Positions 2 through 2,955 of a DNA stretch of 6,509 nucleotides are shown piece after piece. Origin of the DNA: Chloroflexota bacterium (GTDB lineage Bacteria; Chloroflexota; Anaerolineae; UBA3071); assembly GCA_014383605.1 (NCBI GenBank), contig JACNHM010000469.1, positions 1 to 6,509 on the forward strand, given 5' to 3'. Made by a program: the position numbers and the translations under genes. A model generated the notes under the pieces. It was not told where the DNA came from. It was given only the letters and a program-made list of their open reading frames with translations, and ran no database searches. How positions within the stretch are numbered: the stretch's first letter is position 1; each line of letters begins with the position of its first letter.

Positions 2-502
2 GAGCTGGCCCCGGCTCTGCAGCCGCTGAGCCTCGCCTTCGGTGAGCAAGTGGAACTGGTGGGCTGGGCCTACGGCGGCCGCGGGCCGGGGGCAACCAGC
101 ACGGTCGAGGAGGCGCGCGCACCAGAGGTGGTGGTCGGCCAATCTGCCTGGGCGGTGCTGCGTTGGCGGCAACTTGCGGGCGCCAAAGAGCCGCTTAAGG
201 TCAGCCTACGGCTGGTCGGCGAGGATGGTCATCGGATCGGCCAAGATGATTGCCCATTGCTCAACGACCGTCACCTGGCCCCGCCAAACTGGGACGCGGA
301 AGATCGGCCGCTGAACGTCTACCTCATCGAAGTGGAAGTGGGGCCGGACACGCTGCCGGGTAGCTACTTGTGGCAGGTGGTGGTCTACGAACCGCAGACG
401 CTGGCCCCGCTGCTCTGGTTGGATGCCGATGGCCAACTCCATGGCGAGCCGGCCACGCTGGGCCGCATTCGTGTGCTAGGCAAGGACGATTTCTCTTCGT
501 GA
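2..502 (+). CDS. C-terminal part of a GT-C (GT39/ArnT-like) membrane glycosyltransferase, 5' truncated
   Basis: Only the last 166 codons are present; the frame is open to the left edge, so the start lies outside the window. No membrane helix is visible. The segment reads as an extracytoplasmic beta-strand-rich domain: alternating strands around residues 16-24, 42-57 and 64-72, a G-E-D-G turn (73-76), and the pattern L-P-G-S-Y (118-122) followed by a strand ending in VVVYE. The next gene ends with a recognisably similar domain (V-F-L-Q-L-L-D-A-E-G, then L-P-P-G-E-Y). In large Chloroflexota-type GT39-like proteins this kind of domain follows the membrane-embedded catalytic part. The stop TGA at 500-502 overlaps the GTG start of the next gene by 4 bases (GTGA), which suggests translational coupling. 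That the missing N-terminal part is a GT-C membrane domain is inferred from the shared C-terminal pattern and the neighbours. The catalytic residues cannot be seen here. Confidence 0.72.
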   Translation, partial: ELAPALQPLSLAFGEQVELVGWAYGGRGPGATSTVEEARAPEVVVGQSAWAVLRWRQLAGAKEPLKVSLRLVGEDGHRIGQDDCPLLNDRHLAPPNWDAEDRPLNVYLIEVEVGPDTLPGSYLWQVVVYEPQTLAPLLWLDADGQLHGEPATLGRIRVLGKDDFSS

Positions 503-2955
503 TCAGCAGGAACCACAGATTTCACGGATCACACAGAAACATTCAAATTCGCTGGCCGTGGCCGGCAGCGGTCGCCCTCTTCGTCTCGCTTTTTACCATT
601 TACTTGTTGACAGGGAGCGGTGGCTTTCACATCGTTGACGAAATCTCCCTGTTCGCCGTCACCGAGAGCGCGGCCAAGCGAGGGGCCTTCGACACCAACG
701 CTATCGGCTGGATGCAGTGGACGACTTCGCCTGGGGAGCGGTTGGGCGCTTTCGGGCCCGACGGCGATGTCTTTTCCAAGAAGGGGCCGGCGCTGGCGCT
801 GCTGGCGGTGCCGCTCTACTGGCTGATGTGGGCCTTGCCGGGCGTAGGGTTGCTGCAGGGCACGCTGCTCTTCAACATGCTGGTGACCGCGGCCACGGCG
901 TTGCTCGTATGGCGGACGGTGCTGGCCTTGGGATATGCGCAGCGGACCGGTGTGGTCGCGGCCTTGCTCTACGGTCTGGGCACCATGGCCTGGCCTTACG
1001 CCACCCATTTCTTCGGCGAACCGCTGTCGGCGCTGTCGCTGCTGGCGATGTTCTATACCTTACTGCGCCTGCGGCAGAGCGGGCGCTCGGGGTATGCCTG
1101 GGCTACGGGGCTGGCGGCCGGCCTGCTCATCGCCGGCAATGCCGCCCACGCTGTCGTCCTGCCCTTTTTCCTGCTCTACCTGGCGCAAGAGGCAAGGGGC
1201 AAGAGGCAAGAGGCAGGAAGAGAGAGCCATTTGCATCTTGCATCCTGCATCCTGTATCTTGCATCTTGCATCCTGGTGCCCCTGATCGCAGCGGTGGCAC
1301 TGCTGGCCGGCTACAACTGGGTCCGCTTCGGCCATCTGCTGCAGACAGGGTATCATTTCGAGGCTGGAGAGGGATTCAACGGGCCATTGCTGCAGGGATT
1401 GTGGGGGCTGCTGTTGAGTCCCTATCGCGGCCTGTTTTGGTACACACCGTTGGCCGTCGCCGCGCTGTTGAGCTGGCCCCGTTTCATCACTCGACATAAA
1501 GAAGAGGGCTGGCTGCTGGCGGCCGTGAGCGGCGCGTTGGTCTTACTCTTCTCCTGCTGGTGGATGTGGTGGGCGGGCTTCGCCTGGGGGCCGCGCTTCC
1601 TGGTGCCCTTAATGCCGTTTCTGGTGGTCGTCCTGGCACCGGTGCTGGAGAGGTGTAGGGGCACCCCTTGCGGTTGCCCTACAGACGTTGGGGTGGATGG
1701 TGTAGGGGCACCCCTTGCGGTTGCCCTCATAATCCTAATCCTCCTCTCCGTGGCCGTGCAACTGCTGGCCGTGAGCGTCAACTACGTCAATTATGAGATG
1801 GAGTTGCGGGAGAAGATCTATCCCACCGACTGGGCCGATCCTCTGCGCTATGGGCCGCCGGCGTTGTATAATCCCTGGCATTCGCCGGTGCTGGGGCAGG
1901 TGCGCCTGTGGTGGCGTGGTTTCCTGGCCCACGAAGACTTGGCCTGGGTGCAGGCGGGAGCTGTGCAGTGGGACGTGGTCGTGGCAGGGCTGGCAGTGTT
2001 GGCCTTGGCCGGTGTGACGCTGGGCCTGGCGCTGCGGCAGGAAGCAAGAAGCAAGAAGCAAGAGGCAAGAGGCAGGAGACAGGAAGTTACTCGCATCTTG
2101 CATCCTGCGTCCTGCATCTTGCTTGTCCTGGCAGCGCTGGCTTTCGCCGGCTTTGTCCTGGTGCGATACGCCGCTGATCCTGTCTACGGTCAGGCAAAGG
2201 AAGGGTATGCGGCCATCCTGGACGAGATTGCCGTCCAGGCCGGGCCGGATGATGCCATCGTCACGGTGGCTCCGTACCATTACCACATTCCCATGAATCG
2301 CTATCGGGGTCGGCTGCCCATCTACGGCTACGCACAGGAAGGGTTGCCGCTGCATGCCGAGACGGAGCGCGTGCTGCGGCGGGTGCTGAATCAGCGCGAG
2401 CGCATCTGGTTCGTCACCGCCGGGCTGCGTCCGTCCGATGAAAACAACGGCATTGAGGCCTGGCTGGCGGAGCACGCCTTCCAGGCCGGCGATCGTTGGT
2501 ACGGCGATTTCCGGCTGCTGCCCTACGGGACGGCTGATGAGCTCACGCCGCTGCCGGTGACGGCCCGTTTCGGCTCGGCCATTGAGTTGGAGAGTGCGGC
2601 CATCGGCCCAAGCCAAGCCGGTTCCATCCTGGCCGTGGAGTCGCGTTGGCGCGCCCGGGAGCCAGTGAAGTCAGACCTCGTCGTCTTCTTACAGCTTCTG
2701 GATGCTGAGGGGCGGCTGCGAGCGCAGCGGGACGGTCGGCCCCGGGGAGGGTATGCGCCTGTGGCCACCTGGCGACCCGGCCAGGTCATCGTTGACCGTC
2801 AGGGGCTGCTGTTACCCTCCGACCTGCCGCCAGGCGAGTATACCCTCATCGCCGGCTGGTATGAGGCAACGAGCCTGGAGCGACTGCCCGTTTGGAGCCG
2901 TGACGGTGAGCCATTAGGCGATCACCTGATGCTGGGCAGGGTAATGACCGAATAG
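499..2955 (+). CDS. GT-C (GT39/ArnT-like) integral membrane glycosyltransferase carrying in-frame repeat insertions, 818 aa
   Basis: Likely transfers a sugar from a polyprenyl-phosphate donor on the outer face of the membrane. Start: GTG at 499 overlaps the upstream stop as GTGA, with AAGGA (482-486) upstream. It is the last GTG/ATG before the first membrane helix (about 20-38). An earlier in-frame start at 370 would add a low-quality tail lying wholly inside the upstream gene. The first outer loop holds the H-I-V-D-E motif (44-48), where GT-C enzymes carry an acidic catalytic residue, then F-G-P-D-G-D-V-F-S-K-K-G (85-96), as in this family. W-G-P-R-F-L-V-P (363-370) is another family landmark. 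Roughly 11-13 helices run to about residue 554. An outer region (560-680) and a beta-rich terminal domain (685-815) follow. The oddity is repeat-derived peptide at residues 6-14, 230-259, 386-410 and 513-541. The frame is intact, so I do not call it a pseudogene. The exact substrate is unknown. Confidence 0.88.
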   Translation: MISRNHRFHGSHRNIQIRWPWPAAVALFVSLFTIYLLTGSGGFHIVDEISLFAVTESAAKRGAFDTNAIGWMQWTTSPGERLGAFGPDGDVFSKKGPALALLAVPLYWLMWALPGVGLLQGTLLFNMLVTAATALLVWRTVLALGYAQRTGVVAALLYGLGTMAWPYATHFFGEPLSALSLLAMFYTLLRLRQSGRSGYAWATGLAAGLLIAGNAAHAVVLPFFLLYLAQEARGKRQEAGRESHLHLASCILYLASCILVPLIAAVALLAGYNWVRFGHLLQTGYHFEAGEGFNGPLLQGLWGLLLSPYRGLFWYTPLAVAALLSWPRFITRHKEEGWLLAAVSGALVLLFSCWWMWWAGFAWGPRFLVPLMPFLVVVLAPVLERCRGTPCGCPTDVGVDGVGAPLAVALIILILLSVAVQLLAVSVNYVNYEMELREKIYPTDWADPLRYGPPALYNPWHSPVLGQVRLWWRGFLAHEDLAWVQAGAVQWDVVVAGLAVLALAGVTLGLALRQEARSKKQEARGRRQEVTRILHPASCILLVLAALAFAGFVLVRYAADPVYGQAKEGYAAILDEIAVQAGPDDAIVTVAPYHYHIPMNRYRGRLPIYGYAQEGLPLHAETERVLRRVLNQRERIWFVTAGLRPSDENNGIEAWLAEHAFQAGDRWYGDFRLLPYGTADELTPLPVTARFGSAIELESAAIGPSQAGSILAVESRWRAREPVKSDLVVFLQLLDAEGRLRAQRDGRPRGGYAPVATWRPGQVIVDRQGLLLPSDLPPGEYTLIAGWYEATSLERLPVWSRDGEPLGDHLMLGRVMTE
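514..540 (+). repeat. Three 9-base units forming a CACAGATTT-type repeat at the N-terminus of the 499 gene
   Basis: Three consecutive 9-base units start at 514, 523 and 532: CACAGATTT, CACGGATCA and CACAGAAAC. They share the core CAC-R-GA. The period is a multiple of three, so the units translate to the tripeptide pattern HRF-HGS-HRN in the N-terminal cytoplasmic tail. From memory, sequences of the type CCACAGATTTCACGGATT occur as dispersed intergenic repeats in Chloroflexota, Planctomycetota and other large genomes; this was not checked. Here the repeat begins only 12 bases inside the coding region, just after the GTGA overlap. The natural reading is that it landed at the gene junction and was absorbed as the protein's first residues. 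Confidence 0.62.
1185..1275 (+). repeat. Heptanucleotide hairpin-like element 1, in frame inside the 499 gene
   Basis: The left arm (1185-1219) is five 7-base units of consensus GCAAGAG (variants GCAAGGG and GCAGGAA). A 13-base purine-rich spacer follows (1220-1232). The right arm (1233-1274) is six units of GCATCTT or GCATCCT, with one GTATCTT. Right-arm units are near reverse complements of left-arm units: about six of every seven positions can pair, the exception being one G-A mismatch per unit. The whole can therefore fold into an imperfect stem. In the gene's frame the left arm encodes QEARGKRQEAG and the right arm encodes HLASCILYLASCIL. This gives a charged loop followed by the first half of a membrane helix (about residues 247-271). 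From units 1185-1274 the length is 90 bases, a multiple of three. Confidence 0.85.
1652..1683 (+). repeat. 29-base palindromic repeat, copy 1, with 7-base terminal inverted repeats
   Basis: Bases 1652-1680 are identical to 1699-1727. In this copy the three following bases complete a perfect 7-base inverted repeat, TGTAGGG (1654-1660) against CCCTACA (1677-1683). Inside it, CA/TG and CC/GG can extend the stem with single-base bulges around the loop CCTTGC, so the 30-base unit 1654-1683 is a near-complete hairpin of REP or MITE-fragment type. It is read here as the Cys/Pro-rich peptide RCRGTPCGCPT (residues 385-395), immediately after the helix that ends in LVVVLAPVLE. I recall GTAGGGGCACCCCTTG-type repeats as common dispersed elements in Chloroflexota, which is unverified here. 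Confidence 0.82.
1699..1727 (+). repeat. 29-base palindromic repeat, copy 2, read in a different frame
   Basis: Exact copy of 1652-1680, starting 47 bases later and separated by the 18-base spacer 1681-1698. Because 47 is not a multiple of three, the identical DNA is decoded one frame over, giving GVGAPLAVAL (residues 401-410). This runs straight into the hydrophobic helix IILILLSVAVQLLAVS. The right terminal repeat is degraded: CCCT is followed by CAT rather than ACA. The only remaining frame would read GTG TAG and terminate, so both copies sit in permissive frames. Confidence 0.82.
2037..2120 (+). repeat. Heptanucleotide hairpin-like element 2, in frame inside the 499 gene
   Basis: The left arm (2037-2085) is seven 7-base units: GCAAGAA, GCAAGAG and GCAGGAR types, and one ACAGGAA. 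A 7-base spacer GTTACTC (2086-2092) follows. The right arm (2093-2120) is four units: GCATCTT, GCATCCT, GCGTCCT and GCATCTT. It has the same architecture and unit consensus as the element at 1185-1275, with different copy numbers. It also enters the reading frame in the same phase (codons start at the second base of the first unit). It encodes QEARSKKQEARGRRQE followed by TRILHPASCILL, that is, a basic cytoplasmic loop and the start of the last membrane helix (about residues 534-554). The total length is 84 bases, a multiple of three. Confidence 0.85.

Follow-up and report, generated by a model that had tools for sequence, protein, structure and literature searches.

Arrays of seven- and eight-nucleotide words in a membrane glycosyltransferase gene and at gene junctions of Chloroflexota

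The window analysed here, a stretch of 6,509 nucleotides from a Chloroflexota bacterium (assembly GCA_014383605.1, contig JACNHM010000469.1), carries two arrays of seven-nucleotide words, named E1 and E2, both of which lie inside the single open frame of an 818-residue membrane glycosyltransferase (Table 1). Their general design is (GCARGAR)n, spacer, (GCATCYT)n. The original prediction had described two elements of the same design in one gene, and the units, the arms and the open frame were all recovered. The arm pattern GCARGARGCARGAR matches seven times in the window and GCATCYTGCATCYT four times, all within E1 and E2, and neither pattern was matched in 200 dinucleotide shuffles. As claimed, the elements start in the same phase of one frame and encode related peptides, QEARGKRQEAG...LASCILYLASCIL in E1 and QEARSKKQEARG...LHPASCIL in E2. 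The common codon phase carries little weight because any three consecutive 7-nt units take in all three phases. The further claim that both lengths are divisible by three was wrong for E1: positions 1185–1275 comprise 91 nt (remainder 1) and positions 2037–2120 comprise 84. Arrays of GCAAGAG are open in all six frames. This openness was considered as a special feature of the word and discarded, as it is shared with 8264 of the 16384 heptamers.

Table 1. Features of the window discussed in the text.
Feature	Positions	Strand	Remarks
Membrane glycosyltransferase gene holding E1 and E2	499..2955	+	Open frame, 818 aa
E1 arm 1: five GCARGRR units (GCAAGAG, GCAAGGG, GCAAGAG, GCAAGAG, GCAGGAA)	1185..1219	+	Encodes charged QEARGKRQEAG
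E1 spacer, 13 nt	1220..1232	+	
E1 arm 2: six GYATCYT units	1233..1274	+	Encodes LHLASCILYLASCIL, predicted start of helix 241-277
E2 arm 1: six GCARGAR units	2037..2078	+	Encodes QEARSKKQEARGRRQE
E2 spacer, 14 nt	2079..2092	+	
E2 arm 2: four GCRTCYT units	2093..2120	+	Encodes RILHPASCIL, predicted start of helix 536-558
Different repeat, two identical 29-nt copies of GGTGTAGGGGCACCCCTTGCGGTTGCCCT	1652..1727 (1652-1680, 1699-1727)	+	Third variable loop of the glycosyltransferase
About three degenerate 9-nt units (ACCACAGATTTCACGGATCACACAGA; CACAGATTT type)	508..535	+	Read off the sequence by eye

By its predicted fold, the 818-residue protein is a membrane glycosyltransferase of the GT-C type. 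Pfam returned PF03901 (Alg9-like) and PF13231 (PMT_2), both below the cut-off. There are 351 homologues at E ≤ 0.001, and the named ones come from metagenome-assembled genomes (MAGs) of the Anaerolineae/Caldilineae type. The AlphaFold model, built with 20 aligned sequences, has a mean predicted local distance difference test score (pLDDT) of 79.8 and a predicted template modelling score (pTM) of 0.82, and it comprises a multi-helix domain and a C-terminal beta domain. Its top PDB matches are AglB, EmbA/B, Pmt4 and AftA, with low template modelling scores (0.25–0.34, by query length); these are GT-C enzymes. In the model, E1 is placed at the tip between helices 215–238 and 241–277, and E2 at the tip between helices 491–523 and 536–558. 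In both cases, arm 1 is predicted to encode a charged helix end and a turn, and the helix that follows would begin with residues from arm 2. The confidence of the model around the two elements is moderate (block means 72–87).

The E1 and E2 peptides were not found in 19 aligned homologues, with one partial exception at E2. At the E2 site, three relatives (P0002–P0004) read GREAGGRW and a fourth (P0005) reads RQEAGGRRQET; these relatives are 73–74% identical to the window protein. Since QEAGGRR is the product of a GCAGGAG array in the frame of E2, a relic or shortened form of the E2 word may be present there in the four relatives. At the E1 site, P0005 reads SKSEIRNPKFPFHPLHLAPCIL, a peptide that would fit an AAATCCG array followed by GCACCTT/GCATCCT units. 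Some homologues carry other 7/8-residue repeats in the very loops of E1 and E2. In a set of 120 proteins, made up of the query and 119 of its 351 homologues, peptides with a period of 7–9 residues occurred three times at the N-terminus, four times in loop 1, three times in loop 2 and four times in loop 3; the five other segments gave 3, 0, 0, 0 and 1. This amounts to 14 protein-regions in the N-terminus and loops (14,777 residues) versus 4 elsewhere (80,580 residues). Certain periodic peptides resemble other words (ANQQINESANQRISE in P0027, ASRIPHPAPRIPHP in P0065), and some, such as the alanine-rich ones of P0029 and P0031, are probably not arrays. The peptides of E1 and E2 lie at loop tips where the homologues vary freely. 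They are best read as tolerated there rather than of demonstrable use, and the exaptation named in the original prediction is not supported.

The same word is found well outside the window. A scan with the two-arm pattern GCAAGARGCAAGARN{6,36}GCATCYTGCATCYT, with one genome per species, returned 52 stretches in 19 genomes (counted from record titles): 12 Chloroflexota, 2 Nitrospinota, 2 Deltaproteobacteria, 1 Prevotella, 1 Flavobacterium and 1 Hydrogenedentota. The Hydrogenedentota case, with one match on a contig of 4 kb, may be a binning error. A single-arm pattern of greater length was matched in all 19 of these genomes, from 1 to 92 times per genome, and its reversed control had no match in any of them. 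The single-arm GCAAGAR pattern is matched 92 times in the Prevotella MAG (G006). In a survey of the phylum, the strict two-arm pattern was present in 1 of 301 Chloroflexota genomes, the centre of the survey itself, and the strict word is therefore rare in the phylum. The window protein had only partial matches in 12 array-bearing genomes (best 40% identity, residues 533–812).

The word of E1 and E2 is one of a large class of 7/8-nt word arrays that includes dozens of words. Dozens of them occur in 705 kb of one Chloroflexota genome (G001) chosen around arrays, where period 7 is the commonest (134 of 475 arrays). Density was compared in samples of about 400 kb each, which were contiguous or hand-picked rather than random, the G001 stretches in this case not being chosen for arrays. 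The number of 7/8-nt array clusters per 100 kb was 15.8 in G019, 10.3 in G001 and 8.3 in G003, versus 0.2 in the control G227, the sole array-poor genome examined, for which samples came from 20 places on a Chloroflexota contig of 3.3 Mb. Arrays of period 2–6 were few in these samples, and first-order Markov sequences gave 0–1 period-7 array per sample. By extrapolation, some Chloroflexota genomes hold hundreds of array copies. The 104 clusters of G019 and G001 fall into co-directional spacers (66), genes (22), divergent spacers (8), convergent spacers (5) and edges (3), and per base they are about 24 times as frequent in spacers as in genes. They often begin close to a stop codon: 25 of 38 (G019) and 14 of 28 (G001) co-directional clusters start no more than 20 nt from the upstream stop, counting those that overlap it. 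For the GCARGAR/GCATCYT word itself, gene context was assigned with a simple codon-model gene caller to 55 elements, 53 in the 52 loci and two in the window. Co-directional spacers hold 27 sense and 3 antisense elements, and genes hold 17 sense (including the two of the window) and 2 antisense elements; two lie between convergent genes and four were undetermined. The elements are 41–202 nt long, with variable units and words, and several words can be mixed within one spacer.

Orthologous sites allow for a view of how such arrays change. The CarA proteins of G002 and G019 are 88% and 85% identical to that of G003 over the matched part, and the three orthologues have arrays at two common loops. 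In the linker before the amidotransferase domain, G003 (L156) and G002 (L158) carry a GCAAGAG/GCATCCT element, G019 (L157) carries GCGAATCA octads and AAATCCA heptads, and G014 (L159) carries no array. In the second loop, the mixtures of words differ among G003, G002 and G019. In the second loop of G003 (L013/L156), four words (GCAAGAG, GCGAATC, ATTACGAA and AATCCAA) adjoin in a coding loop of about 80 residues. The open frame of L158 ends within its second-loop array, with further CarA sequence matched in another frame, which is due either to an array-caused frameshift or to an assembly error in the repeat. Thirty loci, out of at least 31 listed CarA-like matches with long coverage, were read by eye. 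Three had linker arrays, and four (including L177) had 7/8-nt arrays in the second loop; L159 has an inverted repeat, L178–L180 have a long loop with no array, 20 have a short loop and L183 is truncated. At the same site, the second loop of L176 consists of five 18-nt repeats (LASHAG), a repeat of another type.

Beyond CarA, 23 site comparisons in spacers and other genes are listed. Nine had strong flanks (identity of 76% or more across 150 bases or more on both sides), and one of these, with an N-masked target, was dropped. In the remaining eight, the partner had a 7/8-nt array in every case; the word was different in seven and partly shared in one. Another comparison, with the 52 loci as anchors and CarA excluded, gave nine sites: five with the same word, three with a different word and one with no array. 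The shared word had itself been the basis for retrieving most of the same-word targets, and two of the three different-word sites are also among the eight strong-flank comparisons. At the five same-word sites (among G002, G003, G005, G015 and G019) the lengths differ, as in L034/L049. For a stricter test of site persistence, with array-free spacers as the control, there were too few cases (four array and two array-free comparisons in G019, none listed for G003). At orthologous sites, the array often persists while its word changes.

The inverted arrangement of the two arms raises the question of whether the hairpin itself is the functional unit, namely an mRNA stem-loop under selection, which might for instance act in operon spacers by blocking nucleases or tuning expression, while the copies in coding sequence would be by-products. 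E1 and E2 fold better than shuffled sequences on both strands (z −3.4 to −6.0; 0 or 1 of 200 shuffles as good). Neighbouring arrays are inverted-complementary (score ≥ 12) in 38% of 24 pairs in G019 and in 52% of 46 pairs in G001, the latter taking in array-chosen stretches, compared with 7% and 5% of random pairs; direct similarity between neighbouring arrays is not raised. The predominance of the sense orientation (42 to 5) and the closeness to upstream stops are also what a selected stem-loop would lead one to expect. Nevertheless, the pairing itself is not what such selection predicts. Opposite GCARGAR stands the complement of GCARGAT, which leaves one purine·purine mismatch, mainly with A, in most repeats; the arms are inverted in design without being plain reverse complements. 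In 72 elements of the GCARGAR family, covariation between R4 and Y6 was not seen (Watson–Crick fraction 0.439 versus 0.454 expected if independent), R4 variation being limited in this test by the selection of the 52 loci for A at that position in two units. Neither was a G·U preference seen on the sense strand of 26 two-armed G001 elements, where G·U and U·G together number 54 versus 73 for A·C and C·A. Selection on RNA pairing was rejected on these two grounds. Moreover, 19 of the 55 elements lie inside genes, and unpaired arrays are common. Single-arm loci elsewhere have a Watson–Crick second arm, no clear arm, or an array of another word next to them (L071, L080). In the Prevotella locus L053, the second arm is plainly Watson–Crick and not of the purine·A type. 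The inverted design is real, but it is apparently not maintained by present-day pairing; the hairpin of the original prediction holds as geometry, with no selection on its pairing seen. A stem-loop kept by selection as the functional unit is improbable.

A fixed mobile cassette, moved by a transposase or a reverse transcriptase and landing occasionally in frame, is also unlikely, if slightly easier to entertain. Its models are repetitive extragenic palindromic (REP) elements with their REP-associated tyrosine transposases (RAYTs), miniature inverted-repeat transposable elements and Rickettsia palindromic elements. Like such elements, the arrays are dispersed, palindromic and present both within and between genes. 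Rickettsia palindromic elements provide a precedent for palindromic DNA in frame within genes where the protein is tolerated, according to the parts of the sources available (PMC6649704, PMC10969869), and the present arrays likewise occur as in-frame palindromic insertions in unrelated genes. However, those families consist of elements of about 150 bp rather than tandem 7/8-nt words, and the roughly constant sequence and length of such a family are lacking here, where length is not fixed and words are mixed in a single spacer. REP/GTAG palindromes are described, in the available part of the source, as short and dispersed, some in genes and some from Chloroflexi, with a GTAG or CGTC tag and a link to a transposase, and they are not tandem words (PMC3733652); here, these tags lie within 10 nt of the palindrome foot in 3 of 55 elements versus 6.6 expected from random places. 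Matches resembling Y1 transposases exist in 9 of 9 genomes, and the family was rejected as a marker of array-rich genomes because Y1_Tnp is equally present in array-poor G227. The reverse transcriptase family RVT_1 (PF00078) was found in seven of the nine genomes, namely the five array-bearing Chloroflexota tested, Nitrospinota G008 and Flavobacterium G017; it was not found in G227, as a cassette would have it, nor in the word-rich draft genome of Prevotella G006. On this evidence, a reverse transcriptase is not required, and it is possible for Chloroflexota. The two-arm motif was present in no stretch of the viral contig collection, the search having taken in viral collections and not plasmids. 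At the other extreme, E1 and E2 could be ordinary ancestral protein in which the codons of two loops are similar by chance. Some similarity is expected because both loops consist of a charged turn followed by a membrane helix. This explanation is scarcely credible and is taken as refuted, given that the residues are not kept in the 19 aligned homologues, that the shuffles matched neither arm pattern and that DNA arrays of identical type occupy spacers of other genomes. The original prediction of dispersed repeats rather than ancestral sequence was thus borne out: homologues keeping these residues with synonymous changes did not appear among the 19, and such arrays are numerous in and outside the genes of other genomes.

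The arrays are dispersed and come in many words; they have inverted partners above chance, lie at gene junctions and in protein loops, and change in length and word. The most probable explanation, in our judgement, is that they are self-expanding word arrays that turn over at permissive sites and are tolerated as loop peptides. Arrays would grow and shrink by slippage in steps of 7 or 8 nt, and new words would overwrite older ones where this is tolerated, that is, in spacers just past a stop codon and in protein loops and linkers, so that permissive sites would be refilled repeatedly. In the glycosyltransferase gene, two such sites would lie at the tips of two helical hairpins, where arm 1 would furnish the charged turn and the first turns of the following membrane helix would come from arm 2. 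Between the two options first offered, inserted mobile or self-expanding repeats, the second is favoured; a one-off insertion fits poorly with the relic-like peptides at E2 and with the change of words at kept sites. Candidates for the birth of a new array are copying from another array, fold-back synthesis and an enzyme. A stronger version, in which an active process, possibly an enzyme, keeps filling permissive sites with 7/8-nt arrays and their inverted partners and overwrites older words, is put forward tentatively.

Several points weigh against turnover by self-expansion. Neither the birth of an array nor a slippage event has been directly observed, and the history of the E2 units in P0002–P0005 is read from peptides rather than DNA. 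In two of the eight strong-flank comparisons, the partner array was the reason for fetching the locus (L031 and one L052 site); in 14 comparisons with weaker or shorter flanks, the partner had an array in only five, one of them weak; and the array-free site among the nine anchored ones belongs here as well. The word is shared with Prevotella, Flavobacterium and Nitrospinota, of which vertical turnover gives no account. Furthermore, among 47 orientable elements outside the window, the 42 sense versus 5 antisense depart strongly from equality (binomial p 2.5e-8), and unpaired GCAAGAG rows in G001 are sense in 15 of 15 cases. This bias needs an additional selection step. Unpaired GCAAGAA rows are sense in 3 of 5 cases, and the clusters as a whole gave no general purine excess on the sense strand, the purine share exceeding one half in 29 of 51 and in 19 of 37; therefore, the orientation bias belongs to particular words. 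As a conjecture, it may stem from selection favouring hydrophilic loops and disfavouring untranslated RNA rich in pyrimidines.

Two other repeats lie in the same gene. The region of the 29-nt repeat includes residues 390–399, where the pLDDT falls below 50. The palindromes GTAGGGGCGCAAGGCC...GCCCCTAC in G001 (L097) resemble this repeat, which was present in no stretch of the viral contig collection. The 9-nt units start a few bases past the stop of the upstream frame (500–502) and overlap the region where the glycosyltransferase is presumed to start, and the N-termini of its relatives (HRSHRLHRG) resemble an array of this kind. The repeat finder returned no row for these units. Rfam had no family in the window at gathering scores.

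Cyanobacterial genomes contain short tandemly repeated repetitive heptanucleotides, which form 7-nt tandem arrays with several words per genome. Coding two-armed copies, present here, were not found for them in the parts of the literature that the search reached. Heptanucleotide repeats of Geobacter metallireducens have four units, the consensus GGACCGG and 49 copies (PMC2700814). The available part of that paper describes one four-unit word and states no inverted second arm, whereas here there are dozens of words per genome and a change of word at orthologous sites. TAACTGA repeats are reported from Beggiatoaceae, Cyanobacteria and Bacteroidetes (MacGregor 2015, PMC4679880). According to the text available, they too are 7-nt arrays with a patchy distribution over phyla, mostly intergenic, with 7-nt indels in close strains and some copies in frames. 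In the forward direction, TAACTGA stops all frames and precedes starts in the Guaymas genome, whereas GCAAGAG arrays are open in six frames, often begin near stops and are paired with an inverted arm. GGGAATC/GGGGAYT repeats of Xanthomonas and Nostoc (Rehm 2015, PMC4692102) are likewise dispersed heptamers that prefer gaps between aligned genes and vary in length and sequence at shared sites; in the part of the paper available, they form quadruplexes and prefer four units, while the present word has no such G tracts. What characterizes bacterial heptanucleotide repeats is also found in this case: the units of E1 and E2 run head to tail in 7-nt steps, many dispersed and mainly intergenic copies exist in genomes other than the window's own, and the number of units varies at orthologous sites. 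E1 and E2 are thus a variant of these known repeats. Five word strings searched in the literature were not found in print, a search on heptanucleotide or heptamer repeats and Chloroflexi yielded no paper on such repeats in the phylum, and no account came to light of Chloroflexota arrays that combine several 7/8-nt words, inverted partners and the replacement of words, subscription literature lying mostly outside the search.

Bacterial heptanucleotide repeats have long been known, and they raise the questions of why the unit is 7 (and 8) nt, how the arrays spread and why the same words occur in distant phyla. Array-rich genomes, an array-poor relative of the same phylum and orthologous sites with changed words make the birth, growth and replacement of arrays measurable. 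If the arrays are actively written, spacers and protein loops would be continually resupplied with tandem sequence, the set of words varying by genome while the sites persist, and the two loops of the glycosyltransferase would be products of that writing. The array genomes illustrate a route from non-coding repeats to protein loops, linkers and helix ends.

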